From the NCBI RefSeq assembly GCF_036346855.1, contig NZ_CP107841.1:8932001-8996000 (forward strand): DNA of 64,000 nucleotides, in the 5' to 3' direction. A program made the position numbers and the translations under genes. The notes beneath the pieces were generated by a model that ran no database searches, had not been told where the DNA came from, and was given only the letters and a program-made list of their open reading frames with translations. Below are positions 7,481 through 34,092 of this stretch, one piece after another. Source of the DNA: Streptomyces europaeiscabiei. Lineage in GTDB: Bacteria; Actinomycetota; Actinomycetes; Streptomycetales; Streptomycetaceae. Positions within the stretch are counted from its first letter, which is position 1. Each line of letters starts with the position of its first letter.

Positions 7481-7554
<74 letters not shown>

Positions 7555-7674
7555 CAGTTTGATGGACTGTCGTAGCAGGTCAGGGCCTTGGATCACATGA
7601 CGTGAGACGAGGCCCTTGATCATTTCCGGGCTCTCGTCTCACAATCTCTCACCAACTGGGATGATCTTCCCCAG

Positions 7675-18412: not shown

Positions 18413-18483
18413 CCCACGCTCCCGCGCCGCCCTCCATGATCTTGAACGGTCGGTGCCTGTCCTCATTCCCTGGAGCGTCTCCC

Positions 18484-20250
18484 GTGCACACCGTCGAGCC
18501 GGATGTCGTGACCGACGTACTGATCGTGGGCAGTGGCCCCGCGGGCGCCTCCGCCGCGCTCGCCCTGAGTACGTACGGCGTCCCGAACATCGTGGTCACC
18601 CGTTACGCGCGTCTCGCCGACACGCCCCGGGCACACATCACCAACCAGCGCACCATGGAGGTGCTGCGCGACCTCGGCGTCGAGGACGAGGTCGTCGCGA
18701 AGGCCACGCCGCAGCGGCTGATGGGCGACACGACCTTCTGCACCAGCCTCGCGGGGGAGGAGCTGGGCCGGGTCCGCTCGTGGGGCAACGACCCGCTCGT
18801 CCAGGCCGCGCACGAACTGGCCAGCCCCACCCGGATGTGCGACATGCCGCAGCACCTCATGGAACCCGTGCTCGTCGACGCGGCCGTGGCACGCGGCACC
18901 AACCTGCGCTTCAGCACGGTCTACAAGTCCTTCGTCCAGGACGACCACGGCGTCACCGTCACCGTCGAGGACCGGCTGCGCGGCGACGAGTACACCATCC
19001 GCGCCAAGTACCTCATCGGCGCCGACGGCGGCCGCTCACAGGTCGCCGAGGACATCGGGCTGCCGATGGGCGGCCAGATGGGCGTGGCCGGCAGCATCAA
19101 CATCGTCTTCGACATGGACCTGGCGAAGTACACCGCGCACCGCCCGTCAACCCTCTACTGGGTGCTGGCCCCCGGCGCCACCGTCGGCGGCATCGGGGCG
19201 GGCCTGGTCCGGTGCGTGCGGCCCTGGAACGAGTGGATGATCGTCTGGGGGTACGACGTCACCGCGGGCGCCCCCGACCTGACCACCGAGTACGCCGAGT
19301 CGATCGTCCGCAGGCTGGTCGGCGACGACGAGATCCCGGTGACCGTCAAGTCGTCCTCGGCCTGGACCGTCAACGAGATGTACGCGCAGACCTACTCCAA
19401 CGGGCGGGTCTTCTGCGCCGGCGACGCCACGCACCGCCACCCGCCGTCCAACGGCCTCGGCTCCAACACCTCCATCCAGGACGCCTACAACCTGGCCTGG
19501 AAGCTCAAGCTCGTCCTCGACGGCACCGCGTCCCCCGAGCTGCTCGACACCTACACCGCCGAACGCGCCCCGATCGGCAGGCAGATCGTCACCCGTGCCA
19601 ACAAGTCCATCGGCGAGACCGCCCCCGTCTTCGAGGCACTCGACGGGCTCTCCCCGCAGAGCCCCGAACAGCTGTGGGCCAACATCGCCGCCCGCAAGGA
19701 CGACACCGAGGCGGCCGAGAAACAGCGGGCGAAGCTCCGCGAGGCGATCGCGTTCAAGGTGTACGAGTTCAACGCGCACGGCGTCGACCTCAACCAGCGG
19801 TACTCCGCCGAAAGCTCTTCGGCGATCGTCCCCGACGGTACGGCGGACCCCGGTTTCGACCGCGACCCCGAGCTGTACCACCAGCCGACCTCCCGCCCCG
19901 GCGCCAAACTTCCGCACGCCTGGATCACCTCCGGCACCCGCACCCTGTCCACGCTCGACACAGTCGGCCGGGGCCGCTTCACCCTGCTCACCGGCATCGG
20001 CGGCGCCGACTGGATCAAGGCCGCCGCCGCCCAGGACCTGGAGATCGCCACCGTCGTCATCGGCCCCGGCCAGGAGTACGAGGACCCGTACGGCGACTGG
20101 GCACGGCTCCGAGAGGTGGCCGACGGGGGAGCCCTCCTCGTACGGCCGGACGGGTACGTCGCCTTCCGCCACGTGACGGCGGCCGCGACCCCGGACGACG
20201 CCGAGCGGTCGCTGACGGACGCGGTCCGGCGGATTCTCGGGCGTGCCTGA
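18484..20250 (+). CDS. FAD-dependent aromatic hydroxylase (phenol/resorcinol type)
   Basis: This 588-residue group A flavoprotein monooxygenase has the FAD dinucleotide fold VLIVGSGPAGASAALALS, the DG motif YLIGADGGRSQVAED and the GD motif FCAGDATHRHPPSNGLGSNT. The C-terminus is a thioredoxin-like domain (FTLLTGIGGADWIKAAA, LLVRPDGYVAFRH), as in phenol 2-monooxygenase, TfdB and PheA relatives. GTG 18484 has GGAG at 8 nt; an upstream ATG at 18436 lacks one. The next two genes encode an intradiol dioxygenase and maleylacetate reductase, so the likely reaction is hydroxylation of resorcinol or a related phenol to hydroxyquinol. Control by the divergent AcoR-like protein is inferred. Confidence 0.88.
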   Translation: MHTVEPDVVTDVLIVGSGPAGASAALALSTYGVPNIVVTRYARLADTPRAHITNQRTMEVLRDLGVEDEVVAKATPQRLMGDTTFCTSLAGEELGRVRSWGNDPLVQAAHELASPTRMCDMPQHLMEPVLVDAAVARGTNLRFSTVYKSFVQDDHGVTVTVEDRLRGDEYTIRAKYLIGADGGRSQVAEDIGLPMGGQMGVAGSINIVFDMDLAKYTAHRPSTLYWVLAPGATVGGIGAGLVRCVRPWNEWMIVWGYDVTAGAPDLTTEYAESIVRRLVGDDEIPVTVKSSSAWTVNEMYAQTYSNGRVFCAGDATHRHPPSNGLGSNTSIQDAYNLAWKLKLVLDGTASPELLDTYTAERAPIGRQIVTRANKSIGETAPVFEALDGLSPQSPEQLWANIAARKDDTEAAEKQRAKLREAIAFKVYEFNAHGVDLNQRYSAESSSAIVPDGTADPGFDRDPELYHQPTSRPGAKLPHAWITSGTRTLSTLDTVGRGRFTLLTGIGGADWIKAAAAQDLEIATVVIGPGQEYEDPYGDWARLREVADGGALLVRPDGYVAFRHVTAAATPDDAERSLTDAVRRILGRA

Positions 20251-20341
20251 ACCGGAGGCCCCCGGGGCAGGCGCCGTGTGCGGGGAAACATCTGCCGTCT
20301 CAGCCGTGGCGAAGCCGCGTGAACAGTCGTAGGAGTGGGGC

Positions 20342-21301
20342 ATGAGCACCGAATTCACCACCCGGATCACCGAGGCTGTCGTCGACAGCCTCGACGGCAC
20401 GGCCGACCCGCGCCTGCGCGAGCTGCTCGCCGCCCTCACCCGCCACCTCCACGCCTTCGTGCGCGAGGCCGAGCCGACGACGGCGGAGTGGGAGCAGGCG
20501 ATCGCCTTCCTCACGGCGACCGGGCGGGCCTGCACGGACACCCGGCAGGAGTTCGTTCTCCTGTCGGACGTCCTCGGTGTCTCGATGCTGGTCGAGACGA
20601 TCAACAGCGACGGGCGTGACGGGCGCGATGAGAGGTACGAGAAGGGCGAGAGCACCGAGGGGGACGAGAGCGATGGGCTCGGCGGCGTGACGGAGTCGAC
20701 GGTCCTCGGCCCGTTCCACATGACCGAGTCCCCGGCCCGGGAACTCGGCGCGGACATCGACCTGGTCGGCGGCGGCGAGCCGTGCGTGATCAGCGGACGC
20801 GTGCTGTCCAAGGACGGCACTCCGCTGCCCGGCGCGGTCCTCGACGTGTGGCAGGCGAACCCCGAGGGCTACTACGACGTCCAGCAGCCCGACCTCCAAC
20901 CGCCGGGCAACGGCCGCGGACTGTTCACGGCGGACGCCGAGGGCCGCTTCTGGTTCCGCACCTGCGTGCCGAGCCCGTACCCCATCCCCACGGACGGCCC
21001 TGTCGGTGACCTCCTCCGGGCGACGGCACGGCACCCCTACCGCCCGGCTCACATCCACTTCATCGTCTCGGCCGAGGGGCACACCCCGGTCACCACCCAC
21101 ATCTTCGTGGCCGGCAGTGACCACCTCGACTCGGACGCGGTCTTCGCGGTCAAGGAGAGCCTCGTCCAGGACTTCACGGAGACCGACGACCCGTCCCAGG
21201 CCCGGCGGTTCGGCATCCGGAACCCGTTCCGCCACGCCCACTTCGACCTCGTACTCGACGCGCCGGACACCGCGGGCGCGCGCGACTCGGAGCGTGCGTA
21301 G
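20342..21301 (+). CDS. Hydroxyquinol 1,2-dioxygenase-type intradiol dioxygenase
   Basis: This 319-residue intradiol ring-cleavage dioxygenase uses non-haem Fe(III). The four ligands are visible as Tyr in NPEGYYDVQQ, Tyr in CVPSPYPIPTDGPVG, and two His in RPAHIHFIV. The N-terminal helical dimerisation domain (FTTRITEAVVDSLDGTADPR) precedes a short TESTVLGPFH turn. Between them lies an unusual highly charged insert of roughly 25 residues (DGRDGRDERYEKGESTEGDE) not seen in typical family members. The stop codon overlaps the GTG of the maleylacetate reductase gene by one base, so the two are translationally coupled. Product would be maleylacetate from hydroxyquinol. Confidence 0.88.
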   Translation: MSTEFTTRITEAVVDSLDGTADPRLRELLAALTRHLHAFVREAEPTTAEWEQAIAFLTATGRACTDTRQEFVLLSDVLGVSMLVETINSDGRDGRDERYEKGESTEGDESDGLGGVTESTVLGPFHMTESPARELGADIDLVGGGEPCVISGRVLSKDGTPLPGAVLDVWQANPEGYYDVQQPDLQPPGNGRGLFTADAEGRFWFRTCVPSPYPIPTDGPVGDLLRATARHPYRPAHIHFIVSAEGHTPVTTHIFVAGSDHLDSDAVFAVKESLVQDFTETDDPSQARRFGIRNPFRHAHFDLVLDAPDTAGARDSERA

Positions 21302-22368
21302 TGGAGTTCGTGTACGAGGCTCAGCCCATGCGGGTCGTCATGCGCCCCGGGGCGTCGGCGACGGCGGTGGCGGAGGAGGCCGAACGGCTGGGGCTGCGGC
21401 GGCTGTTGGTGGTGTGCGGACCGAGGGGTGCCGAGACAGCTCGGGTTGTCGCGGACTCACTCGGTGGCGCATGCGCAGGACTGTTCGCACAGGCCCGCCA
21501 GCATGTACTGGCGGAGGTGGCCGAACGAGCGGTCCGGGCGGCGCGGGCCGCGGACGCGGACGGATGCGTGGCGGTCGGCGGCGGCTCGGCGATCGGACTG
21601 GGCAAGGTGATCGCGCTCCGCACCGAACTGCCGTTGATCGCCGTGCCGTCGACCTACTCCGGCTCCGAGATGACCCCGGTCTGGGGCGTGACCGAACACG
21701 GCGCCAAGCGCACCGGCCGCGCCCCGTCGGTCCTGCCCCGCAGCGTTGTCTACGACCCCGAACTCACCCTCTCTCTCCCCGTGCTCCTCTCCGTGACGAG
21801 CGGAATCAACGCGGTCGCCCACGCCGCCGAAGCCCTGTACGCGCCGGACGCCTCGCCGCTGGTGTCGCTGACGGCGGAGGAGGGCGCCCGTGCCATGGTG
21901 GGCGCACTCCCCGCAGTGGCGGCCGACCCCGGGGACCTGGAAGCACGAGGCCGAGCGCTCTACGGCGCATGGCTCTGCGGGGCCGCGCTCGGCGCGACCA
22001 CCATGGGCCTGCACCACAAGCTGTGCCACGTCCTCGGCGGCACCTTCGGCCTTCCGCACGCCGAAACGCACACGGTCGTCCTTCCGTACGCCCTCGCCTT
22101 CAACGCCCCCGCCGCACCCGACGCCATGACGGCCCTCGGCCGAGCCCTGACGGCAGAGAACGCCCCACAGGCTCTGTGGGACCTGTCGGGCGGCCTCGGC
22201 GCGCCCCGCTCCCTGGCCGAACTGGGCCTCGGTGAAGCGGACTTGACCAGGGCAGCGGCCGAGGTGACGGGGCAGGCGTACCCCAACCCGAGAAAGCTCA
22301 CGGTGACGGACGCCCTGCAGGTCCTGAGGGCGGCATACGAGGGCGACCGGCCTCCGGTGTGGCCCTGA
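21301..22368 (+). CDS. Maleylacetate reductase
   Basis: This 355-residue iron-containing alcohol dehydrogenase-type enzyme has the NAD-binding VAVGGGSAIGLGKVIAL, the YSGSEMTPVWG motif, the metal-region INAVAHAAEALYAPDASPL, and GLHHKLCHVLGGTFGLPHAE with conserved His residues. The pattern GLHHKxCHVLGG with HAETHTVVLPY is characteristic of maleylacetate reductases, which convert maleylacetate to 3-oxoadipate using NAD(P)H. It starts at GTG 21301 within the TAGTG overlap with the dioxygenase gene. With the hydroxylase two genes upstream it completes a short resorcinol/hydroxyquinol route into the oxoadipate pathway. Confidence 0.9.
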   Translation: MEFVYEAQPMRVVMRPGASATAVAEEAERLGLRRLLVVCGPRGAETARVVADSLGGACAGLFAQARQHVLAEVAERAVRAARAADADGCVAVGGGSAIGLGKVIALRTELPLIAVPSTYSGSEMTPVWGVTEHGAKRTGRAPSVLPRSVVYDPELTLSLPVLLSVTSGINAVAHAAEALYAPDASPLVSLTAEEGARAMVGALPAVAADPGDLEARGRALYGAWLCGAALGATTMGLHHKLCHVLGGTFGLPHAETHTVVLPYALAFNAPAAPDAMTALGRALTAENAPQALWDLSGGLGAPRSLAELGLGEADLTRAAAEVTGQAYPNPRKLTVTDALQVLRAAYEGDRPPVWP

Positions 22369-22380
22369 CCGAGGGCCCGA

Positions 22381-22465
22381 CGCGTACCGAAGGACGCGTA
22401 CCGAACGGCGCGTACCGAACGGCGCGTACCGATTGACCCGCACCGACTGACCCGCACCGACTGAC
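22381..22465. repeat. Tandem repeats with 14-bp period
   Basis: Four copies of CGCGTACCGAA(N3) start at 22381, 22395, 22409 and 22423. Two copies of TGACCCGCACCGAC follow at 22434 and 22448. The array fills the gap between maleylacetate reductase and the YceI gene. Confidence 0.85.
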
Positions 22466-22487
22466 GAGAAACCGAAAGGTGAACACC

Positions 22488-23399
22488 ATGCCCCTCGGAC
22501 TGCTCCGGCGGCGATTCAGGAATGCCCCCGGAGGCGCCGCGGGCGCCACGTTCCCCGTCCCGGACGGCGCGGGCGTCGTCCTGCGCGAGGTGCTGGACCC
22601 CGTGAACCAACCCATGGGCGCGGCCGAGGTGACGGTGACGGAGCTGCGCAGCCACCGCGTCGCCGCGCGCGGTGCCACGGACCCGTACGGCTTCTTCATG
22701 GCCGTACTGCCGCCGGGCACCTACAGCGTGCTGATCATGGCCGAGGGGCTGGAGCCGCACCGCGAGACGGTCGAGATCGTCGCGGACGCCGGTGTCTCCC
22801 GGGAGCGGGTGTGGCTCCAGTCGGCAAGGGCGCTCGAACTCCCGGCCCCCGGCACCTGGCTCTTCGACCCACCGCACACCGCGATCCGCTTCATCGCCAA
22901 GCATGTCGGGATGGCCCATGTGCACGGCCGCTTCGAACGCTTCGAGGGCGGCCTCGCGGTCGCCCAGGACATGACCCGGTCCCGCGTCCACGTGCGCATC
23001 GACGCGTCCAGCATCACCACGGGCAACAACACCCGTGACACGCACCTTCGTTCGGCCGACTTCCTCGACGTCGAACGCTTCCCGTACATCGACTTCACCA
23101 GCACCCGTTTCGCCTACCGCGGCGGCAGCAAGTGGACCCTCCAGGGCAGCCTCACCATGCACGGCGTCAGCCGCTCCGTGGCCCTGGACACCACCTACCT
23201 CGGCACCGTCAACGGCGGCTACGGCGAGGAACTCCGCTGCGCCGCCCTCGCCAAGTCCGAACTCCACCGCGAGGACTACACCCTCAACTGGCGCTCCATG
23301 CTCGCCCGTGGCATCGCGGTCGTCGGCCCCACCATCCAGCTGGAACTGGACGTCCAGGCGATGTACCGCACCCACGACACGCCCACGCCGCCGGAGTAG
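22488..23399 (+). CDS. Carboxypeptidase-regulatory domain fused to YceI domain
   Basis: This 303-residue protein has two parts. Residues 20-110 form a carboxypeptidase regulatory-like (transthyretin-like) beta-sandwich: GAGVVLREVLDPVNQPMGAA, TDPYGFFMAVLPPGTYSVLI. Residues 120-300 form a YceI lipid-binding barrel: GTWLFDPPHTAIRFIAKHVG, RDTHLRSADFLDVERFPYID, LTMHGVSRSVALDTTYLG. No signal peptide is evident although YceI is often secreted. YceI binds polyisoprenoids or amphiphiles; the joined beta-sandwich may aid surface attachment. ATG 22488 follows AAAGGTG at 7 nt; a GTG three codons upstream is less likely. It follows the hydroxyquinol genes but no functional link is known. Confidence 0.85.
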   Translation: MPLGLLRRRFRNAPGGAAGATFPVPDGAGVVLREVLDPVNQPMGAAEVTVTELRSHRVAARGATDPYGFFMAVLPPGTYSVLIMAEGLEPHRETVEIVADAGVSRERVWLQSARALELPAPGTWLFDPPHTAIRFIAKHVGMAHVHGRFERFEGGLAVAQDMTRSRVHVRIDASSITTGNNTRDTHLRSADFLDVERFPYIDFTSTRFAYRGGSKWTLQGSLTMHGVSRSVALDTTYLGTVNGGYGEELRCAALAKSELHREDYTLNWRSMLARGIAVVGPTIQLELDVQAMYRTHDTPTPPE

Positions 23400-23677
23400 A
23401 GGGAAAAGTCCGCGCGATATCCGCTCAATCCCTGTTCAAATCCGGTCGACCATTTCTGGTCATCGACAGTCGAGAACTCGGCGGTCATGTACGCCAATTC
23501 GGCCACGGTGGCAAGGAATGGCCGAGGATGCACCTTGATGCTCCGGATGTATGCATGGGGCAACTGACCCCAACTGTCTTGTGGACGCGCGAAGAGCACT
23601 GACAGAGCATGGACAGGGAATACATCCGAGCGGGGCAGCTTCTCCGCGCCCATCGGCTCTCAGGGAGGCAGCTAGGC

Positions 23678-23860
23678 ATGGACGCGCCTCGGAACAGCCA
23701 CATCAGTACAGAGCTGGTCGACATCCGTGAAGTGTCGCCGGCTCTGCTGGAGGCGGAGGCCGGCAAGGACACTGCGTTCGGCCAGGCCGTACGTCGCCAC
23801 CTCCAGGAGCGGGACGACTCGTCGAGGACGACCGACGTCGTGTTCGAAAGTGCGCTGTGA
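23678..23860 (+). CDS. fxsA: FxSxx-COOH precursor peptide (FxsA), first
   Basis: This 60-residue ribosomal peptide precursor has a leader rich in acidic and hydrophobic residues (STELVDIREVSPALLEAEAG), a helix AFGQAVRRHLQERDD, and ends ...DVVFESAL. The last five residues, FESAL, match the Phe-x-Ser-x-x-COOH rule that names this family. The ATG at 23678 has AGGGAGG at 9 nt, better than the upstream ATG at 23609. The stop codon overlaps the start of the FxsB gene. FxsB enzymes of this class are known to link the Phe ring to the Ser beta-carbon, so the predicted product is a C-terminal three-residue cyclophane. Function of the mature peptide is unknown. Confidence 0.88.
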   Translation: MDAPRNSHISTELVDIREVSPALLEAEAGKDTAFGQAVRRHLQERDDSSRTTDVVFESAL

Positions 23861-25110
23861 TGACGGCGGATCCGGAACCGGAGGGCCTGCCCACAGTTCC
23901 TTTCCGGCAGTTCCTGCTGAAAATACACAGTTTATGCAACTTGTCATGCGATTACTGCTACATGTACTTCGCAGCCGACCAGAGCTGGCGCAGACGGCCG
24001 GGAGTGATGGCCCTCGACACGGTGCGCCAGGCAATGGACCGGATCGCCGAACACGCCCGTGAACACGGGCTTTCCACGGTGCGCATCATCCTCCACGGAG
24101 GAGAGCCCCTGCTGGTGGGCAAGCGGCATCTGGCCGAACTGCTCGCCATCGTCGCCGAGCGTCTCACCCCTGTCGTGGAGGTGCGCTGCTCGATGCAGTC
24201 GAACGGCGTCCTTCTCGACCACGAGTTCCTCGCGCTGCTGCGTCACCATCGTGTCGGCGTGGCGGTCAGCGTGGACGGCACGCCCGAGGCACACGACAGA
24301 CACCGGCGGTTCGCGAACGGCCGCGCCAGCCACGCGCGGGTGGCCGCGGCCCTGCGTCTGCTCGACGAACCGCGCCATCGGGACCTGTTCGTGGGCTTGT
24401 TGTGCACCGTCGATCTCGACAGTGACCCCGTCGCCAGCTACGAGGCGCTCCTCGAATTCGCTCCGCCGCGTGTCGACTTCACCCTTCGGCACGCGGACTG
24501 GGGGCACCCGCCGCCCGGTCTCGGACACCGGAGGGTTCCCCCGTCACGACCGCCGGGCGTCGTGCCGGACGGCGAGCCGATCCCGTACGCGCGATGGCTC
24601 ATCGCCGCGTTCGACCGGTGGTTCGACGCACCGCGCAAGGAGACAAGGGTGCGGATGTTCGAGGAGGTCATCTCGGGAGTGCTCGGTGGTGCCGTGAACA
24701 CTGAGGTGTTCGGACTCGCGCCGGTGGACCTCGTGGTCGTGGAGGCCGACGGGGCCCTGGAACACTCCGACTCGCTCAAGATCGTCGGGGAAGGAGTTCC
24801 CGAGACGGGCCTCGATGTCTTCCGGCACGCCTTCTCGGAGGTGCTGGCGACCGGGACCATGAGGCGCAGGCAGGCGGGGCTTCTCGGTCTCGGCCGGGTC
24901 TGCCGGGGCTGTTCCCTGGTCCAGGTCTGCGGTGGCGGCCTCTACACGCACCGGCACCACGAAACGACCGGATTCGAGACCCCGTCCGTCTACTGCCACG
25001 ATCTGGCGGCCTTCATCGGTCACGTCCGCTCCCGGGTCCACGCCGCGATGGCACAGCTCGCCGCGAGCGCACCGCAAGCCGGCCCGGAACGCCCGTCAGC
25101 CCTCTCCTGA
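23860..25110 (+). CDS. fxsB: FxsB radical SAM/SPASM peptide maturase, first
   Basis: This 416-residue radical SAM enzyme binds its catalytic [4Fe-4S] cluster through CNLSCDYCYMY near residue 26. ILHGGEPLLVGKRHL is the SAM-binding GGE region, and SMQSNGVLLDHEFL and VAVSVDGTPEAHDRHRRF are typical of the anSME-like branch. The C-terminal SPASM-type region CRGCSLVQVCGGGLYTHR with a late Cys (SVYCHDL) holds auxiliary cluster ligands. The start ATG overlaps the precursor stop (TGATG); a GTG three bases earlier is an alternative. Substrate is the adjacent FxsA. The enzyme is a close relative of the second maturase at 31273 but clearly a separate paralogue. Confidence 0.93.
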   Translation: MTADPEPEGLPTVPFRQFLLKIHSLCNLSCDYCYMYFAADQSWRRRPGVMALDTVRQAMDRIAEHAREHGLSTVRIILHGGEPLLVGKRHLAELLAIVAERLTPVVEVRCSMQSNGVLLDHEFLALLRHHRVGVAVSVDGTPEAHDRHRRFANGRASHARVAAALRLLDEPRHRDLFVGLLCTVDLDSDPVASYEALLEFAPPRVDFTLRHADWGHPPPGLGHRRVPPSRPPGVVPDGEPIPYARWLIAAFDRWFDAPRKETRVRMFEEVISGVLGGAVNTEVFGLAPVDLVVVEADGALEHSDSLKIVGEGVPETGLDVFRHAFSEVLATGTMRRRQAGLLGLGRVCRGCSLVQVCGGGLYTHRHHETTGFETPSVYCHDLAAFIGHVRSRVHAAMAQLAASAPQAGPERPSALS

Positions 25111-25438
25111 GCCGGAGTGCGACTCGGGGCGCACGGGTGACACCCGCGCGGTTCCCGCGTACGGGCGCACCTGGAAAGGGAGTTGGACGCGGAGAACAGG
25201 GGAAGCATGCATTCGGGTCCTACCGGAACGGGGCCCGTCGGGCTGGACAGGGGTATCGTCTTCTGTCTCGGCACGACTCAACCGAAGGCTATGGCTGAGG
25301 GGTACCGGTTGGGGGGTGGGGAGGTGTGGGAGGCGACCGAACCGCGTGCACTGCCGTCGGCGTCGGCCACCTTCCGAGGCACGAGAATCCATCCACCCCA
25401 CGACAGGGACCCCGCTAACGCGGCACGTCGGGGGCTCG
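25111..25438. other. Gap between fxsB and fxsC
   Basis: These 328 bp contain no recognisable domain. The frame of fxsC stays open through it but reads Arg/Trp-rich, unlike protein, so I treat it as untranslated. A promoter for the large fxsC-fxsT part may lie here; none is obvious. Confidence 0.45.
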
Positions 25439-26773
25439 TTGGAACCGTATTTCTTCCTGAGCTATGCGCGCAGGCGCGGACCCCGCGTCCTCGTCAAGCG
25501 ATTTTACGACGATCTGTGCGCGGAATTACGCCAAGAACTGCGGCGATTACACAAGGGCAATCCCGTGCCCTTCGATCGCCCCTTCTTCGACGTCCAGTCC
25601 ATTCAGGTGGGGCAGGACTGGAGCGCTGCCCTCGGCGAGGCACTGGGCCGCTGCCGCACCATGCTGGCCCTGTACACGCCCGACTACTTCAGAAGCGACT
25701 TCTGTGGTCGCGAATGGAAGGCGTTCGAGGACAGACAACGCAGCCACAGAACAGTGACAGGAGTGGACGCGAAGGCTCTCATTCCCGTTCTGTGGGAGCC
25801 GGTACGAAACATTCCGTCGGGCGCGGCCCACATCCAGTACGACAACTTCGATTTCGGCGAGAACTACGCGCGGTGGGGCCTGCGCCGCATCCTGGTCGCG
25901 GACCCGGGCGGCCAGGAGTACCGCCGCATAGTCAACCTCATCGCGCACCAGATCCTCGTCGCCGCCGAGCACTTCCGCATACTGCCCGTCAACGGCCTGG
26001 ACCTCACCGCGCCGGAGGCCGCCGGCCCGTTCCCGTCTGCCGCGGAACGCGCGGAGCCGGGAAGCCACGCCCTGCTGTTCGTAGCCGCCCGGACCTCGAC
26101 GGACGCCCACAGGGGGGCGGCGGAACCAGGCTGCCACGGGGACACACCGACGGACTGGAACCCCTACCACGCCGACTGTCCGGAACCGCTGGCCGAGAGA
26201 GCGAGCCAGCTTCTGGAGGAGCGTGGCTTCGAGGTACGGACCGAGGTCGTCTCGGACGTGCTGGGCGCCAGCCTGGACGAGGCGCGCGGGCGGGGACAGG
26301 TCGCGGTCCTCCTGGTGGAGGCGATGGCCGCTGCGGACGAACCCTTCGGAAGGGCTCTGCGCGCCTACGACCGGAGCAACCATCCGGGCAGCGCGGCCAT
26401 CGTTCCGTGCGGCCCGGACGACGCAGGTGACGGAGCCCGGAGCAAGGCGTACTGGGAGGCGGTCCGGGGGGCTCTCCCGTTCAACTGGGCGAAAGGAGTG
26501 GGGGATCCCCTGCCGCTGCTCCAATCGGGGATCAGCTCGGACCAGTTCGACGGGGCGCTCCATGCCGTCGTGGTGAAGGTGCAGAACCATCTCCTCTCGT
26601 TCCTGGGCACGCTCAGGACCAGTGTCCTGGAGAAGTCGCAGAGCCCACCCCCTTCGCTCCCCGTCCTGAGTGTGGCACCGCCGCCCGACCGGCCGAGGCC
26701 CGGACCTCCACCGACACCTGCCCGCCCCTTCTCCGAACCGATTCCCATCGAAGAGCAGGAGCAGGACAGATGA
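25439..26773 (+). CDS. fxsC: TIR-like protein FxsC of the FXS cassette
   Basis: This protein of about 444 residues begins with a TIR-like domain: YFFLSYARRRGPRVLVKRFY, then FFDVQSIQVGQDWSAALGEA, CRTMLALYTPDYFRSDFCGR and WKAFEDRQ. Residues 190-350 include a second alpha/beta segment (ERASQLLEERGFEVRTEVVS) typical of the FxsC C-terminal region. The last 60 residues are proline-rich. The start is uncertain: TTG 25439 is the only start codon just before the TIR domain, while upstream sequence lacks domain character. The stop overlaps the fxsT start by 4 bp (ATGA). FxsC homologues occur beside FxsA/FxsB; whether the TIR domain cleaves NAD or acts as a scaffold is unknown. Confidence 0.82.
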   Translation: MEPYFFLSYARRRGPRVLVKRFYDDLCAELRQELRRLHKGNPVPFDRPFFDVQSIQVGQDWSAALGEALGRCRTMLALYTPDYFRSDFCGREWKAFEDRQRSHRTVTGVDAKALIPVLWEPVRNIPSGAAHIQYDNFDFGENYARWGLRRILVADPGGQEYRRIVNLIAHQILVAAEHFRILPVNGLDLTAPEAAGPFPSAAERAEPGSHALLFVAARTSTDAHRGAAEPGCHGDTPTDWNPYHADCPEPLAERASQLLEERGFEVRTEVVSDVLGASLDEARGRGQVAVLLVEAMAAADEPFGRALRAYDRSNHPGSAAIVPCGPDDAGDGARSKAYWEAVRGALPFNWAKGVGDPLPLLQSGISSDQFDGALHAVVVKVQNHLLSFLGTLRTSVLEKSQSPPPSLPVLSVAPPPDRPRPGPPPTPARPFSEPIPIEEQEQDR

Positions 26774-29700
26774 CCCATGACGACCGCGGCCGGGGCACCA
26801 TCATCACCTTCTACTCCTTCAAGGGCGGCACGGGGCGCACCATGGCGCTGGTCAACACCGCCTGGATCCTCGCGAGCAACGGTCTGCGGGTACTCGTCGT
26901 GGACTGGGACCTCGAAGCGCCCGGACTGCACACGTATCTCCAGCCCCTGCTCGCCGACCCCGAACTCACCGAGAGCGCCGGCATCATAGAGATGGTCAGC
27001 GCGTTCACCCTCCGCGAGACACAGGTGAACTCCGGAGCGGAGAACGGGCGCACGCCCGTGCCCCCGCTGAACGGCGGTGGACTGCCCGAGGCCCCCGACT
27101 ACCGCGAGCATGCCCGCGTCGACCGATACGTCGTCGGCACGGAACTTCGGCTGCCACCGGGCGGAAAACTGGACCTCCTGCCCGCCGGTGTGCAGGACGC
27201 CTCGGGCTATGCGGCCGCCGTCAACAGCTTCGACTGGAGCACGTTCTTCCTCACGGGCGGTTCCGAATTCCTCAAGGCACTGCGTGACGACATGGCCGCG
27301 CGCTACGACTACGTCCTGATCGACAGCCGGACCGGCCTCAGCGACACCGCGAGCATCTGTACGGTCGTCATGCCGGACATCGTCGTGGACTGCTTCACAC
27401 TCAGCCGGCAGGGGATCAACGGCGCGGCCCGCGTGGCGGCCGCGATCCGCCGCAACGTCGAGAACCGGCTCAACACGGGAAACTTCCACGACCACCGCGA
27501 CATCCGTATCATGCCCGTCCCCATGCGCGTCGAGGACGCCGGACCCGACCGCCTGGAGGCGGGCCGGTACCAGGCTCGCAGCCTGTTCGCACCGTTCCTG
27601 GACTGGGTTCCGCCCGAGGAGCAGGAGCACTACTGGAGCAGTGTCGAGATCCCGTACAAGGCCAGCTACGCGTATGAGGAGATTCCCGCGACCGTGGGGG
27701 AGCGGCGACAGGACGGCGCTCTGCTCGCCGCCTTCGAACGGCTCACCGCCCGGCTCACCGACCATCGGGTCTCCCGTCTCAGCAACATGCCGGAGGCCTA
27801 CCGGCTGACGCTGCACGCGGAGTACAAGCGCACCTCCCCGATGATTCGCAAGACGTTCTACGTCAGTTACGCCGCGACCGACCGGCTGTGGGCCGACTGG
27901 ATCGTCACGGTGCTGCGGGCGGTCGGCTACGAGGCGACGCTGGCCCCGATCGAGTCGGACGACCTGACCGTCACCTCCGCGACCCCGACGGCGCTGGAGC
28001 ACACGTTGGCCGGTGAGGGCCGCATGCTGGTCCTCCTCTCCCCGCGTTACGTCGCGTTGCCGCCCGCACGGGAGATCTGGCACCAGACCAGCCGCAGGGA
28101 CCCGGCCGGACAGATAGGCCTGGTCGTCCCCCTCCGGGTCGACGACTCCCCGCCCTCGTCGGAGTTCGCGTCCCCTCCGGCGGTCAGCCTCGCCGGTGTC
28201 TCCGCGGAGGAGGCCGTGGCGCGACTGCTGACGGCCGTCGACCGTGGCGGCTCGGCGGAGCCGGGGTCCCGTTCGGGAGCTGCGGGCCTGGCCGCCGCGG
28301 CCCGGATCCCGGGGACGCCGCCGCAGGTCATAGGCGGTCGACCACAGCGCAATGTCGTCTTCACGGGCCGCCGGACGACCATCGAACGTCTGCGTGACAG
28401 TCTGCTCGCAGGCACCACCGCCGTCCTGCCGCAGGCGCTGTTCGGGCTCGGTGGTGTGGGCAAGACCCAGGTCGCTCTCGAGTACTCGTACCGGTTCGAG
28501 TCGGACTACGACCTGATCTGGTGGATCAAGGCTGCGGATCGCACTCAGATCCGGCAGGACCTGAACACGCTGGCCGGGCACCTCGGTATACCCGTCGGCG
28601 GCAAGGACCTGACAGCGGTGTGCAACGAGGTGCTGGAGAAGCTGCGCCTCGGGACGCCGTACTCTCGTTGGCTCCTGGTCTACGACAACGCCGAGAAGCC
28701 GGCCGACCTCGACAATCTGATTCCGGCCAGCGGACCGGGCAAGCACATCCTCATCACGTCGCGGGACCCGGCGTGGGCGGAGCGCGCCGCACGCGTCGAG
28801 GTGAACCTCTTCACCCGTGCGGAGAGCGTCGCGCTGCTGCGGCGTTACAACGAGGAACTGCAGCCCGCGGAAGCCGCCCGGGTGGCCGAGGAACTCGGGG
28901 ACTTCCCCCTGGCGGTGAGCCTCGCCGCCGCCTCACTGCTGGAGTCGGCGACGCCGGTGGACGCCTACGTGGACATGCTGCGGACGAAGATGTCGGACTT
29001 CCTGGGGAGCCGGTCCGCCCCCGACTATCCGACGTCGGCAGCAGCGACCTGGTCACTCGAACGGCTGAAGACACGCACGCCCGCCGCAGCCGTTCTGCTC
29101 GAACTGTGCGCGTTTTTCGGGCCGGACCCCATTCCCCGGGAGCTGTTCAGCAGCCGCCCCGCACTCGAACTGCTCGAACGCCATGACCGGAGCCTCTCCG
29201 ATCCGCTGCTCATGAGCCGACTCTACGGCGACATCGTTCGGAATGGGCTCGCACAGGCCGACCAGCGGACGGACACTTTGACCATGCATCGCTTGATCCA
29301 ACATGTGCTCCGGGACCAGCTCACCGGCGAACAGCAGGACGTCATGAGGGGGCAGGCCCAAGCCGTACTCGGCCAGGCCAATCCGAAGGACCCCGACGAG
29401 TCCGAGAACTGGAAGAGTTACGCCGCCCTGCTCCCTCACCTGTGGCCCACCAGGGCCGAGGAGAGCGACAACCTCGAGGTACGGCAGTGGATCTGTGACA
29501 CTGTCCGCTACCTGTGGCGCAGTGGCGACGCCGACACGGCCACCAGGACGGCTGAGCGGGTGCTCGAGAGCTGGCTGCCACGCTTCGGCGACGACGAGGC
29601 ACTCGTGCTGCGTCTGCGCACCGAACTCGGTAACGCACTGCGCGATCAGGGCCGCCTGGCCGAGGCGTACGAGGTGACGCGCGACGTGTACGAGCGGGGC

Positions 29701-30822
29701 AGCCGGATACTGGGCGAGGAACACCCCTACACCCTCGGCGCGGCCATGAGTCTCGGCTCCGACCTGCGCAGTGTCGGCCGGTATGCGGACGCGATGGAGA
29801 GCGACAGGGAGACGCTGCGGCGCACCCGGAGGGTCTTCGGCGAGAACCACCCACGCGCCCTCGCGGCGGCCAACAACCTGGCCGTGTCGGAGTTCCTCTC
29901 GGGCAACCGCCGGGCCGCCCGTGATACCAACCGGGACATCCTCACGCAGCGCCGGGAGATCTCCGGCCCCGACCAGCGCGCCACCCTCAACTCCGCCACG
30001 AACTACGCGCGCGACCTACGGGCCGCCGGCGCCTTCCGGGAGGCGCTGAAGCTCATCGAGGACACGCTGAAGCGCAGTCGGAGCGCGCTGGGCCCCGACC
30101 ACCTGATCACCTTCCGCGCATCTCTCGGAGCGGCGATCCTCTACCGTCGGCTGGGCCGGTACGAGGACGCGTACAAGCTGACGGACGAGATCTACGAACG
30201 GGCGCTGAAACAACTGGGCCCCGAGCACCCCGACACACTGGCCATCGCGACCAACCTCTGCTCGGACCTGTACGACCGAGGGGAGTCCGTGCAGGGCCGC
30301 GAACTCGCCAAGGAGACCCTGGACAGTTACGAGGGAAGGTTCGGCCCGGACCATGTCTTCACCCTCGCCTGTGGTGCCAACCTCGCCGTACTGCTCCGGC
30401 TGACCGGGGAGCCGGAGGCGGCGCTGGAGCTGTCGATCCGTACCGTCGACCGCTTCCGCCGACTCCTCGGGCCGCGCCACCCGTACACCCTCACCTGCAT
30501 GCTGAACCATGCGACGGACCTGTCCGAGAACGGCGACCACGCGGGGGCCGTCCAGGTGGGCCGCGAAGCGCACAAGGGGCTCACCGAGGTGCTCGGCCCG
30601 GAGCACTACCTCGCCATCGCCGGTGCCTCGAACCTCGCGGCCGAACTGCGCCGCGACGACTCGGAGGAGGCCGAGCGGCTGCAGGAGGAGGCCGGGCGAC
30701 TCCATGGCGAAGCGGAGCGCCGCGCCGTCGACAGTGCCGAACTCGGCGGGGACCACCCGATGACCCGGGCGGTCACGCGCTGGCATCCCATCGACGCGGA
30801 CATCGAGCCACCGGTCACGTGA
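26770..30822 (+). CDS. fxsT: FxsT: MinD-like/TIR-like/NB-ARC/TPR protein
   Basis: This 1350-residue multidomain protein has four parts. The N-terminus is a MinD/ParA-like ATPase with deviant Walker A (YSFKGGTGRTMALVNTAW, residues 15-32), VLVVDWDLEAPGLH, and the IDSRTGLSDTA strand. A TIR-like segment starts near residue 358 (FYVSYAATDRLWADWIVTVL). An NB-ARC/STAND NTPase follows, with P-loop FGLGGVGKTQVALEY (558) and LLVYDNAEKP plus ILITSRD. From about residue 930 to the end are repeats of kinesin-light-chain-like TPR units with the recurring GPDH/GPEHPDTL pattern. Its position in the cassette and architecture match the FxSxx-COOH system tetratricopeptide repeat protein. It is translationally coupled to fxsC and followed by a strong terminator. 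Confidence 0.9.
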   Translation: MTHDDRGRGTIITFYSFKGGTGRTMALVNTAWILASNGLRVLVVDWDLEAPGLHTYLQPLLADPELTESAGIIEMVSAFTLRETQVNSGAENGRTPVPPLNGGGLPEAPDYREHARVDRYVVGTELRLPPGGKLDLLPAGVQDASGYAAAVNSFDWSTFFLTGGSEFLKALRDDMAARYDYVLIDSRTGLSDTASICTVVMPDIVVDCFTLSRQGINGAARVAAAIRRNVENRLNTGNFHDHRDIRIMPVPMRVEDAGPDRLEAGRYQARSLFAPFLDWVPPEEQEHYWSSVEIPYKASYAYEEIPATVGERRQDGALLAAFERLTARLTDHRVSRLSNMPEAYRLTLHAEYKRTSPMIRKTFYVSYAATDRLWADWIVTVLRAVGYEATLAPIESDDLTVTSATPTALEHTLAGEGRMLVLLSPRYVALPPAREIWHQTSRRDPAGQIGLVVPLRVDDSPPSSEFASPPAVSLAGVSAEEAVARLLTAVDRGGSAEPGSRSGAAGLAAAARIPGTPPQVIGGRPQRNVVFTGRRTTIERLRDSLLAGTTAVLPQALFGLGGVGKTQVALEYSYRFESDYDLIWWIKAADRTQIRQDLNTLAGHLGIPVGGKDLTAVCNEVLEKLRLGTPYSRWLLVYDNAEKPADLDNLIPASGPGKHILITSRDPAWAERAARVEVNLFTRAESVALLRRYNEELQPAEAARVAEELGDFPLAVSLAAASLLESATPVDAYVDMLRTKMSDFLGSRSAPDYPTSAAATWSLERLKTRTPAAAVLLELCAFFGPDPIPRELFSSRPALELLERHDRSLSDPLLMSRLYGDIVRNGLAQADQRTDTLTMHRLIQHVLRDQLTGEQQDVMRGQAQAVLGQANPKDPDESENWKSYAALLPHLWPTRAEESDNLEVRQWICDTVRYLWRSGDADTATRTAERVLESWLPRFGDDEALVLRLRTELGNALRDQGRLAEAYEVTRDVYERGSRILGEEHPYTLGAAMSLGSDLRSVGRYADAMESDRETLRRTRRVFGENHPRALAAANNLAVSEFLSGNRRAARDTNRDILTQRREISGPDQRATLNSATNYARDLRAAGAFREALKLIEDTLKRSRSALGPDHLITFRASLGAAILYRRLGRYEDAYKLTDEIYERALKQLGPEHPDTLAIATNLCSDLYDRGESVQGRELAKETLDSYEGRFGPDHVFTLACGANLAVLLRLTGEPEAALELSIRTVDRFRRLLGPRHPYTLTCMLNHATDLSENGDHAGAVQVGREAHKGLTEVLGPEHYLAIAGASNLAAELRRDDSEEAERLQEEAGRLHGEAERRAVDSAELGGDHPMTRAVTRWHPIDADIEPPVT

Positions 30823-30848
30823 CGCCCGCCGAGTGAACGCGATACGTC

Positions 30849-30886
30849 ACCGGGTCCCGCAGACCATCTGGTCTGCGGGACCCGGT
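30849..30886. terminator. Terminator of the first FXS operon, 17-bp stem
   Basis: A perfect 17-bp inverted repeat (ACCGGGTCCCGCAGACC) closes on ATCT, 27 bp after the fxsT stop. It separates the large FXS operon from the second precursor-maturase pair. Confidence 0.85.
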
Positions 30887-30901
30887 GCGACAGCGGGACC
30901 G

Positions 30902-30929
30902 GCGCATCGGATGCGCGCATCGGATGCGC
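30902..30929. repeat. Two overlapping copies of palindrome GCGCATCGGATGCGC
   Basis: The 15-nt hairpin-forming sequence occurs twice, at 30902-30916 and 30915-30929, sharing two bases. It lies about 150 bp upstream of the second precursor and could be an operator or a mRNA structure. Confidence 0.7.
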
Positions 30930-31081
30930 CTCGGACATGGGACAGAGGCTCTCCTGGGTCCCGCTGACGACTGGACCCGCCTTCTGTGCGAATTATGGCA
31001 CTTCCTGTCGTTTCTCTGTGTTTCGTTGCTATTCTCCGGTCGGAGTTACGGCGTGATCGCCATCGCCACACGATTCCCCGT

Positions 31082-31276
31082 ATGAGTTCTGGTCCCCGCG
31101 AGAACGGTGTCAGCTCTATGGTTCCGCCAACCGCGCCCGCCGGCCCCGATCTTGTCGCCGCAGACAACGCTCTGGGTCACATCCTGCGCCGCCTCGAACA
31201 CGAGGCCGCCGATCCGGATGTCACGCACTTCGCCGAGTTCGAATCGTCGATCGACTTTGAAGCACCGATGCGGTGA
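31082..31276 (+). CDS. Second FXS-like precursor peptide with extended C-terminus
   Basis: This 64-residue candidate precursor lies directly before the second FxsB. After a proline-rich N-terminus it has a helical leader (VAADNALGHILRRLEHEAAD) and ends HFAEFESSIDFEAPMR. It thus contains the FES motif of FxsA, but seven residues (DFEAPMR) follow FESSI, and a second Phe-Glu pair occurs there. It therefore departs from the FxSxx-COOH rule. The stop overlaps the maturase GTG by 4 bp (GTGA), the same coupling as in the first pair. The start is uncertain: ATG 31082 or 31118, both with weak ribosome binding sites. Assignment as a precursor rests on motif and position. Confidence 0.75.
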   Translation: MSSGPRENGVSSMVPPTAPAGPDLVAADNALGHILRRLEHEAADPDVTHFAEFESSIDFEAPMR

Positions 31277-32490
31277 TCTCTCCGCCGGTCCCGCCAACTC
31301 CGGTGTGCCTGCGGCAGTTCATCCTCAAGGTGCACAGCCAGTGCAACCTGGACTGCGACTACTGCTACGTCTACCACTCCGCCGACACCAGCTGGCGCGA
31401 CAAGCCGCGCCTCATGGAAGCGGCTGTGGCCGAGCAAGTGGCCCTGCGTATCGCCGAGCACGCCGTGGCTCACCGGCTGCCCGACGTCCGGATCGTGCTG
31501 CACGGCGGGGAGCCGTTGCTTCTCGGGGCCGGGCGGCTGGGGGAACTGCTCGATGTCCTCGCGCGGGGACTGGCGAGGGCGGGGGTGCCCGTCCGTTTCT
31601 CGATGCAGACCAATGGCGTGCTGCTCACCCCCGACACCCTGGACGTGCTCCACCGGCATCGGGTGGGCGTCAGTGTCAGCCTCGACGGCACGCAGGCCGG
31701 CCATGACCGACACCGGCGCCTCCTGAAGGGCGAGGGGAGTCACCGGCGGGTGATGGAGGGACTCGGCCGACTGGGAGAGCCCAGGTACCGCGTCCTGTAC
31801 GCAGGCCTGCTGTGCACGATCGATCTGGCCAACGACCCCGTCGACACCTACGAGGCGCTGCTGGCCTCACACCCTCCTCGCGTTGACCTCCTGCTGCCGC
31901 ACGGCACTTGGGACACACCGCCCCCCGGACTCGCGGATCGGATGAACCGGGTACCCGCTGTCCCGCCGGTGACCGTCCGCGCAGTGACGGACAACTCGGG
32001 GGAGACGCCGTACGCCGACTGGCTGCGGCGGGTGTTCGACCGTTGGTACGACGCCCCCGTACGGGAGACGGGCGTCCGGCTCTTCGAGGAGCTGATGGCC
32101 GGCCTCCTCGGCGGCTCGATGCGCACCGAGTCCGTCGGGCTGGCCCCGGCGACGCTGGCCGTCATCGAGACCGACGGTTCCATCGAGCAGTCCGATTCCC
32201 TCAAGGTCGCCTACCAAGGCGCTCCGGAGACAGGGCTCGACGTCTTCCGCAACACTCTCGACGACGTCCTGGAACAGCCTCTGATCCGTCAACGGCAGTC
32301 GGGCGCCGACGGGCTGGGGCCCACCTGCGGGCGCTGCCTGCTGCTCGGCGTGTGTGGGGGCGGGCTCTTCGCCCACCGGTACGCCTCCGGGAGCGGCTTC
32401 AGTAACCCTTCCGTCTACTGCGCCGACCTGGCAGCGCTGACCCTGCACATCCGGGCCCGGGTGCGGGCCGATATCGCTCCGGCGCCGTAG
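31273..32490 (+). CDS. fxsB: FxsB-type radical SAM/SPASM maturase, second
   Basis: This is a 405-residue paralogue of the first FxsB. The radical SAM motif is CNLDCDYCYVYHSADTSW (Cys24, 28, 31). The SAM region is IVLHGGEPLLLGAGRL, and SMQTNGVLLTPDTLDVL and VSVSLDGTQAGHDRHRR are shared almost word for word with the first. The C-terminal auxiliary-cluster region is CGRCLLLGVCGGGLFAHR with PSVYCADL. The GTG start at 31273 overlaps the precursor stop. Differences from the first maturase concentrate in the central 200-260 region, which may mean a different peptide specificity. No FxsC or FxsT accompanies this pair, so it may share those of the first cassette. Confidence 0.92.
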   Translation: MISPPVPPTPVCLRQFILKVHSQCNLDCDYCYVYHSADTSWRDKPRLMEAAVAEQVALRIAEHAVAHRLPDVRIVLHGGEPLLLGAGRLGELLDVLARGLARAGVPVRFSMQTNGVLLTPDTLDVLHRHRVGVSVSLDGTQAGHDRHRRLLKGEGSHRRVMEGLGRLGEPRYRVLYAGLLCTIDLANDPVDTYEALLASHPPRVDLLLPHGTWDTPPPGLADRMNRVPAVPPVTVRAVTDNSGETPYADWLRRVFDRWYDAPVRETGVRLFEELMAGLLGGSMRTESVGLAPATLAVIETDGSIEQSDSLKVAYQGAPETGLDVFRNTLDDVLEQPLIRQRQSGADGLGPTCGRCLLLGVCGGGLFAHRYASGSGFSNPSVYCADLAALTLHIRARVRADIAPAP

Positions 32491-32570: not shown

Positions 32571-32644
<74 letters not shown>

Positions 32645-32664
32645 CTCGTGAGAGTCGTGGATCC

Positions 32665-32946: not shown

Positions 32947-34092
32947 TCAGCTGCAGACCACGTAGACCGTAAGGGTGCTGAGGGCAGCCGCCGTCGCGGT
33001 CACGGTCCAGTGGTCCCCGCTCGGGAAGGTCTCCGCGAGGACGGTGGCGAGGCCGCTGGCGGACAGGCCTCCTGAGATGGGCACGGTGCCGGCCGGGCAT
33101 GACGGGGAGTCGTAGGACGTTTCGACGGCCAACAGGACGCTGTAGTCCTGGGTGAGGATCGTTGCGTCCACAGGGCCGGTGGGGCCGGTGGGGCCGGTGG
33201 GGCCCGTGGCACCCGTGGCACCCGTGGCGCCGGTGGCACCCGTGGCGCCCGTGGCGCCGTCGACGCCGTTGGTGCCGTCGATACCGTTGGTGCCGTCAGC
33301 GCCGGTGGGTCCGGTGGGGCCCGTGGCGCCGGTGGCGCCGGTGGCGCCGTCGACGCCGTTGGTGCCGTCGATACCGTTGGTGCCGTCAGCGCCGGTGGGT
33401 CCGGTGGGGCCCGTGGCGCCGGTGGCGCCGGTGGCGCCGTCGATGCCGTTGGTGCCGTCGATACCGTTGGTGCCGTCAGCGCCGGTGGGTCCGGTGGGGC
33501 CCGTGGGGCCCGTGGCGCCGGTGGCGCCGTCGACGCCGTTGGTGCCGTCGATACCGTTGGTGCCGTCAGCGCCGGTGGGTCCGGTGGGGCCCGTGGGGCC
33601 CGTGGCGCCGGTGGCGCCGTCGACGCCGTTGGTGCCGTCGATACCGTTGGTGCCGTCAGCGCCGGTGGGTCCGGTGGGGCCCGTGGGGCCCGTGGCGCCG
33701 GTGGCGCCGTCGACGCCGTCGACGCCGTCGATACCGTTGGTGCCGTCAGCGCCGGTGGGTCCGGTGGGGCCCGTGGGGCCCGTGGCGCCCGTGGCGCCGT
33801 CGACACCATCGGCACCGTCAGCACCCGTCGGGCCGGTGGGTCCCGTGGGGCCGGTCTCGCCCCGCTGGCCGTTGCCGCCGTCGCCGTAGTCGCCGTAGTC
33901 ACCCTGGTCGTCGCCACTCGGGTTGGTGGCAGAGGCTCTGTTGGCGACCGTCTTCGTGTGCTCCATCGCGAGAGCGGGGCTGGCCAGGCCCGTGAGCACG
34001 AGAGCGAGGGATGCAAGGCTGCTGCCCGCAATCCAGGTGCTCCGCCTGGGGAGCGGGCCAAGTGAGGAACGTGTCCTGGAGTCAGGACTCAT
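32947..34092 (-). CDS. Secreted collagen-like triple-helix repeat protein
   Basis: This 381-residue protein starts with a basic N-terminus and a hydrophobic signal segment ([20 protein letters not shown], cleavage after ALA near residue 42). A short Gly-Asp-Tyr spacer ([20 protein letters not shown]) follows, then about 230 residues of Gly-X-Thr/Asp/Ala triplets ([19 protein letters not shown]). The last 75 residues ([20 protein letters not shown] to [10 protein letters not shown]) form a small globular domain with two Cys, probably the trimerisation head. ATG 34092 follows AGGAG. No sortase motif is seen. Similar bacterial collagens form surface filaments or exosporium-like fibres. It sits between two tRNA-Pro-derived sequences and may be part of a small inserted segment. 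Confidence 0.88.
33301..33750. repeat. Five tandem 90-bp repeats in the collagen-like gene
   Basis: Units beginning GCCGGTGGGTCCGGTGGGGC recur exactly every 90 bp at 33301, 33391, 33481, 33571 and 33661, with a partial sixth at 33751. Differences are few, so copy number could vary by slippage without frameshift (30 codons per unit). Confidence 0.95.

Follow-up and report, generated by a model that had tools for sequence, protein, structure and literature searches.

The FXS system comprises four kinds of protein, namely a precursor peptide (FxsA, TIGR04268), a radical SAM/SPASM maturase (FxsB, TIGR04269), FxsC and FxsT. Here, we analyze an FXS locus at positions 23678-32490 of a 64,000-nucleotide stretch of Streptomyces europaeiscabiei DNA from NZ_CP107841.1, called the window below, on whose scale all coordinates are given. 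All four kinds of protein are present, with A1, B1, B2, C and T over their family cut-offs. The locus differs from the described system in that two maturases and two precursors accompany a single FxsC-FxsT pair, and in that the second precursor, A2, extends past FxSxx. We will argue that the window is probably a reduced form that arose by loss of a second FxsC-FxsT pair. This history is well supported, for a known kind of system and not a new one. The whole explanation, in which the remaining pair moreover serves both cross-linked peptides, with FxsT as sensor and FxsC as effector, we regard as probable, if only just.

FxsB1 and FxsB2 fall into the family of MscB (IPR026335, which we take to be the same family as TIGR04269), among the enzymes that form triceptides, or three-residue cyclophanes, and the F-x-S motif is kept. 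Such enzymes are characterized by a cross-link between residues i and i+2 of the peptide, which is only predicted for the present locus. Both maturases stay below the YhhB-family cut-off of 445 bits, with scores of 325 and 342. According to PMC11002830, MscB provides a precedent for Phe-Ser cross-links, and related enzymes join an aromatic residue to the Cβ of Ala. For NTP-dependent conflict systems of multicellular bacteria, Kaur et al. (2020, PMC7159879) propose that a radical SAM domain likely modifies a peptide effector and that peptides, once modified, serve as alarm signals; the passage on radical SAM concerns vWA-MoxR systems, unlike FXS, and the name FxsA is absent from the text. The TIR-like domain of FxsC can be compared with SPARTA TIR-APAZ, AbTir and the plant TIR-NLRs, to which its identity is mostly 10-18% in the listed rows, and FxsC adds a second Rossmann-like domain. 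Our literature search, with most subscription papers outside its coverage, found no paper on double FXS loci or on what FxsC and FxsT do.

On the basis of open frames and family matches, the order in the window is A1, FxsB1, FxsC, FxsT, a hairpin, A2, FxsB2 and then a tRNA-Pro. The features are as follows:

23572..23599, + strand: conserved, putative leader or promoter-like block upstream of cassette 1, with a GTGGAC..GCGAAGAGCAC core
23678..23860, + strand: FxsA1 precursor, 60 residues, FESAL-COOH end (TIGR04268, 29.1 bits, cut-off 28)
23857..25110, + strand: FxsB1 radical SAM/SPASM maturase (TIGR04269, 455 bits, cut-off 370)
25439..26773, + strand: FxsC1, two domains, the N-terminal one TIR-like; predicted TTG start
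26770..30822, + strand: FxsT1, with KGGVGR ParA-like ATPase, TIR-like, NB-ARC (STAND) and TPR parts (NF040586, 921 bits, cut-off 300)
30823..31117, + strand: T1-A2 junction, the site of FxsC2-FxsT2 in the complete relative; contains the hairpin and the block conserved upstream of A2
30848-30887, within the T1-A2 junction: hairpin with a perfect 18-bp stem
about 30993-31041, within the T1-A2 junction: block conserved upstream of A2 (eight of eight genomes, by eye)
31118..31276, + strand: FxsA2 precursor, 52 residues, core FESSI and tail DFEAPMR (TIGR04268, 14.3 bits, under the cut-off of 28)
31273..32490, + strand: FxsB2 radical SAM/SPASM maturase (TIGR04269, 460 bits, cut-off 370)
32571..32645, + strand: tRNA-Pro (GGG), found with ARAGORN

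The initial annotation of this DNA had described a precursor-FxsB-FxsC-FxsT run followed by a second precursor-FxsB pair and had placed it in the FXS system, and both statements are borne out, all parts except A2 exceeding their family cut-offs. Membership follows from the FxsB-family maturase, the FxSxx-COOH end of A1, and FxsC and FxsT over the curated cut-offs. For FxsC1 the scores are 187 bits to NF040588 (cut-off 130) and 96 bits to TIGR04276 (cut-off 55). FxsT1 further matches NF047398, PF13676, PF00931, PF25000 and PF13424, which together cover KGGVGR AAA, TIR_2, NB-ARC, DUF7779 and TPR parts. Its assignment to the signal-transducing ATPases with numerous domains (STAND) is based on PF00931 at 24.4 bits (cut-off 23.5), TPR_12 at 157 bits and a GLGGVGKT P-loop in the translation.

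The history of the locus was approached through orthologues of FxsB2. Among 392 genomes of the genus, counting that of the window, four have one at E <= 1e-170 (G000, G108, G343 and G397). A contig scan for FxsB gave at least 79 loci; among the matches listed, five match FxsB2 at 81-94%, the next best being at 58%. These five are from S. europaeiscabiei 96-14, S. stelliscabiei, S. caniscabiei, S. adelaidensis and S. scabiei. Samples of 120 genomes (E <= 1e-130) and 199 genomes, largely overlapping the set of 392, added no further orthologue. The comparison therefore covers eight genomes, all chosen via FxsB2: the window's, G108, G397 and the five just named, with G397 counted as S. capitiformicae and G343 as S. 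scabiei.

In S. capitiformicae the order is A1-B1-C1-T1-C2-T2-A2-B2 with every large frame open, which gives two complete, distantly related cassettes lying head to tail. C2-T2 is missing from four genomes that do carry A1-B1-C1-T1 and A2-B2, namely the window's and those of S. stelliscabiei, S. scabiei and G108. Collinear stretches of decayed C2/T2 sequence lie between T1 and A2 in the latter three, with best E values against S. europaeiscabiei 96-14 of 4e-47 (S. stelliscabiei), 1e-23 (S. scabiei) and 3e-30 (G108). When the gaps were shuffled in two-base blocks, two matches at E <= 1e-4 appeared in 80 trials, so only strong pieces are counted. Pieces from the start of C2 remain in G108 and are absent from S. 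stelliscabiei and S. scabiei, which means that the loss in G108 differs from that in the other two. As the relatives show, A2-B2 would once have had its own FxsC2-FxsT2, now absent from the window. Since S. capitiformicae has both cassettes, the window has the same order minus C2-T2, and relics are found elsewhere, the most plausible reading is that the second pair remains from a once complete second cassette and was not added to the first.

Reduction is also seen on the other side. S. europaeiscabiei 96-14 has C2-T2-A2-B2 without cassette 1, with a 156-nucleotide T1 relic upstream (74% identity, E 6e-24), and S. adelaidensis has C2-T2-A2-B2 only. The GTGGAC..GCGAAGAGCAC core is present in all eight aligned genomes, and the block containing it persists in these two although cassette 1 is gone (both judged by eye in the alignment). 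In S. caniscabiei (L110), A1 is followed by B1 pieces of 84 and 93 nucleotides, one C1 piece of 73 nucleotides, an intact T1 and then C2-T2-A2-B2. As A1 and FxsT1 are open there while FxsB1 and FxsC1 survive only as short pieces, T1 may work together with C2, or A1 with B2. One chromosomal site whose relatives have both C-T pairs, the first only, or the second only amounts to a natural experiment, which makes it directly testable whether the peptides act through FxsC-FxsT and whether each needs its own pair.

In all eight genomes A2-B2 has one or two complete FxsC-FxsT pairs next to it; the outcome in which the second pair is always unlinked in homologous loci, named in the initial annotation as speaking against its proposal, thus did not occur. 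C1-T1 is intact in five of the eight, four of which are without C2-T2, and C2-T2 is present in each of the three genomes that have no intact cassette 1. This pattern makes sharing of C1-T1 by both peptides the leading functional reading, although, in eight related genomes found through FxsB2, it is no more than suggestive of such an arrangement. The annotation had likewise proposed that the second pair shares FxsC/FxsT; the origin differs from the one it implied, A2-B2 having apparently come with a pair of its own.

Protein searches add little on either-or retention. Among the matches listed, S. capitiformicae is the only species-level name shared by the C1-like list (19 proteins) and that part of the C2 list (38 proteins) which is at >= 70% identity; many rows are unnamed, and scoring covered only the candidates with most words in common. 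One C1-like protein, a 91% match with 18 member sequences, bears the name S. caniscabiei, yet the S. caniscabiei contig compared here is without an intact C1, which counts against a strict either-or of C1 and C2. As evidence, the overlap of the lists is weak.

We now consider the maturase trees and the selection acting on FxsB2. In the FxsB tree, FxsB1 (6 rows) and FxsB2 (8 rows) form separate clades, each with a support of 100 in the Shimodaira-Hasegawa-like approximate likelihood ratio test (SH-aLRT), and next to them is a third clade (9 rows, 98) whose members have the order C-T-B. The three clades group together (23 rows, 95), their mutual order not being settled by the tree. A recent tandem duplication of cassettes is ruled out by this separation. 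The FxsB2 DNA tree places S. europaeiscabiei 96-14, which has C2-T2, as the sister of the window (100/98) and groups the two with G108 (98/97).

Purifying selection on FxsB2 continues where C2-T2 is gone. The FxsB2 frame is open in all eight genomes, and its ratio of non-synonymous to synonymous change (omega) is 0.17-0.33 in all 28 pairs. Between S. stelliscabiei and S. scabiei, sisters in the tree that both lack C2-T2, omega is 0.270 for FxsB2 at a synonymous divergence (dS) of 0.34, and 0.246 for FxsB1. The highest FxsB2 values belong to the S. scabiei pairs (0.27-0.33), overlapping the 0.27-0.28 of two other pairs, and some relaxation in S. scabiei is therefore possible. These values could also be taken to mean that A2-B2 is a dying remnant, orphaned too recently for decay. 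The loss in the window may indeed be recent, because S. europaeiscabiei 96-14, with an FxsB2 94% identical, retains C2-T2. We nevertheless consider the remnant scenario very unlikely: FxsB2 is without a frame break in all eight genomes, whereas the C2-T2 pieces of the same loci are broken, and the S. stelliscabiei/S. scabiei values count in addition if the loss predates their split.

How a shared FxsC1-FxsT1 pair might operate can be outlined as follows. FxsB1 and FxsB2 would each form a Phe-Ser cross-link within the FES core of the cognate precursor, and the modified peptides would be a ligand, guard or signal for the FxsC-FxsT complex. With its ATPase, mostly degenerate TIR, NB-ARC and TPR parts, FxsT would be a STAND-type sensor and scaffold that, once triggered, gathers FxsC, whose TIR-like domain would be the likely NAD-consuming effector. 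The TIR fold is recognized in FxsC, and a glutamate occupies the conserved position in 38 of 44 lettered rows out of 46, some loci giving two rows. We take this glutamate to be the catalytic residue. The TIR of FxsT is mostly without it, and FxsC, with a TIR-like domain that mostly keeps it, is the likely effector.

Several points weigh against the reduced tandem with a shared pair. The window itself has no sure relic of C2-T2, since the single 49-nucleotide match in its T1-A2 gap (E 2e-6) lies inside the block conserved upstream of A2. If no regain is allowed, C2-T2 was lost three times by hand count, and unordered parsimony gives two changes. Recombination within the locus is likely, because dS between the window and G108 ranges from 0.20 for FxsB2 through 0.38 for FxsC and 0.50 for FxsT to 0.74 for FxsB1. 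Loci that lost A2-B2 remain unseen, the eight genomes having been found through FxsB2. Finally, a conserved block of its own precedes A2, which might work alone, and four full-score FxsT elsewhere in the genome could serve A2-B2 in trans.

The first of these last two options is a stand-alone cross-linked peptide made by A2-B2, for which its own C-T partner pair would have become dispensable. The promoter-like block upstream of A2 in all eight genomes, judged by eye, and the continued selection on FxsB2 without C2-T2 fit this option, as do some FxsB loci such as L036, L040 and L042, where tblastn with the window's FxsT found no FxsT match near FxsB within the DNA compared. The option is unlikely, however, in view of the complete C-T pair that still adjoins A2-B2 throughout. 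The second, reliance on FxsC-FxsT encoded elsewhere in the genome, we judge distinctly unlikely. There is no shortage of candidates in this 10.95 Mb genome: six FxsB genes exceed the cut-off, and of six FxsT-like matches five reach the full score, among them the window's own, and the sixth has 332.6 bits. The four full-score FxsT outside the window, however, are each near an FxsB of their own, the 332.6-bit match has its nearest FxsB some 45 kb away, and A2-B2 is next to a C-T pair in each of the eight genomes.

We tentatively suggest, giving it a little less than an even chance, that FXS loci are built of exchangeable A-B (precursor-maturase) and C-T (sensor-effector) modules, and that a single C-T module can read two different cross-linked peptides, so that tandem cassettes lose one C-T pair or the other and never the two together. 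Separable modules fit the varying numbers in other families, where L087 has two B with two C-T and L038 one B with two C-T. In the Micromonosporaceae loci L038, L087, L088, L091 and L094, two FxsC-FxsT pairs face each other, the second being partly cut off in L088, L091 and L094; the TIR glutamate is gone from the + strand FxsC in all five and kept in the opposite FxsC in the three seen.

FxsB occurs in 95 of 150 genomes of the genus at E <= 1e-60, the window's included. The initial annotation had suggested a search for paired FxsB genes flanking fxsC-fxsT. By reading of the listed places, two FxsB lie within 10 kb in four of 149 other genomes (G108, G068, G079 and G091), a minimum, since many of the assemblies are fragmented. 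Only G108 has the window's order. The layout of the other three (L012, L011 and L010, respectively) is different: B, a short TIR-NB-TPR protein, B. Neither the AAA part nor FxsC was found in these three loci, nor was an FxSxx precursor by simple scans.

We turn next to the peptides. A1 ends in FESAL in five of six copies and in FNSAL in the sixth. The A2 end in the window is FESSIDFEAPMR, so that the expected second precursor has the FES core without the strict FxSxx-COOH ending; its score is below the TIGR04268 cut-off because the sequence continues past FESSI. An alternative start at 31083 would give 64 residues. The core is FES[SAT][IL] in all eight genomes, each time with 4 to 9 further residues, and the tail has E-[AS] at positions 3-4 in all eight. 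Of the related proteins P0007-P0009, P0008 and P0009 (S. deccanensis and S. akebiae) have the same ending as the window's A2. A tail past FxSxx is not peculiar to A2, since a simple scan found extended or repeated FxS cores near other FxsB (a candidate for 22 of 109, at least one of which, L013, looks spurious). In L076 from Nocardia wallacei, a frame upstream of 10001 has three FNSFI cores in a row and is a possible multi-core FxsA. A precursor rule based on FxSxx-COOH thus overlooks likely partners such as A2, annotated merely as 'hypothetical protein' in S. deccanensis.

The A2 tail could also carry a second ring, FES and [FY]EA both being cross-linked to give a bicyclic product. An aromatic residue, F or Y, precedes EA in five of the eight genomes and in P0007-P0009, and the aromatic-to-Ala linkage of related enzymes mentioned above lends this some chemical plausibility. 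As the aromatic residue is not conserved, being C, A or S in S. europaeiscabiei 96-14, S. caniscabiei and S. scabiei, and only E-[AS] is kept in all eight, we retain the second ring only as a weak, highly improbable rival.

Differing central regions of the two maturases had been put forward in the initial annotation as a sign of peptide diversification. The linker after HGTWxxPPPGL is indeed only 17% identical between B1 and B2, against 52% overall. It varies among orthologues too, with identities in the linker and in the rest of the enzyme of 63% and 75% within B1, and of 49% and 83% within B2, and both peptides have an FES core. Diversification is therefore not supported. The strong hairpin said to end the operon after FxsT is present, 146 nucleotides folded around the stem giving z = -5.5 with none of 200 shuffles equally good; no T-tract was found at 30848-30887, and the terminator list for the window has no entry there.

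The tRNA-Pro follows FxsB2 in the window and in the six relatives scanned with ARAGORN, S. capitiformicae (G397) being outside that scan. A second tRNA-Pro (GGG) lies at 7481-7555, 25 kb upstream of the copy at 32571-32645 and 98% identical to it over 80 nucleotides. In S. europaeiscabiei 96-14 (L111), the same 3' tRNA sequence occurs three times, once changed, and some 8.6 kb separate the upstream copy from C2. If the locus were a mobile island integrated at the tRNA, a repeat of the tRNA end of attachment-site (att) type would be expected on the far side; the sole candidate was the 9-nucleotide TTCAAATCC at 23435, which was dropped because the other five loci with an A1 do not have it upstream of that gene in the sequence compared.

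Beside the cassette, 32947-34092 (- strand) encodes a collagen-like repeat protein with DNA repeats of a 9-nucleotide period and an SclB-like match of 115 bits, under the cut-off. Upstream, 18436-23399 holds a run resembling aromatic-ring degradation, with FAD monooxygenase, catechol dioxygenase-like, iron alcohol dehydrogenase-like and YceI-like genes, all under the NCBIfam cut-offs.

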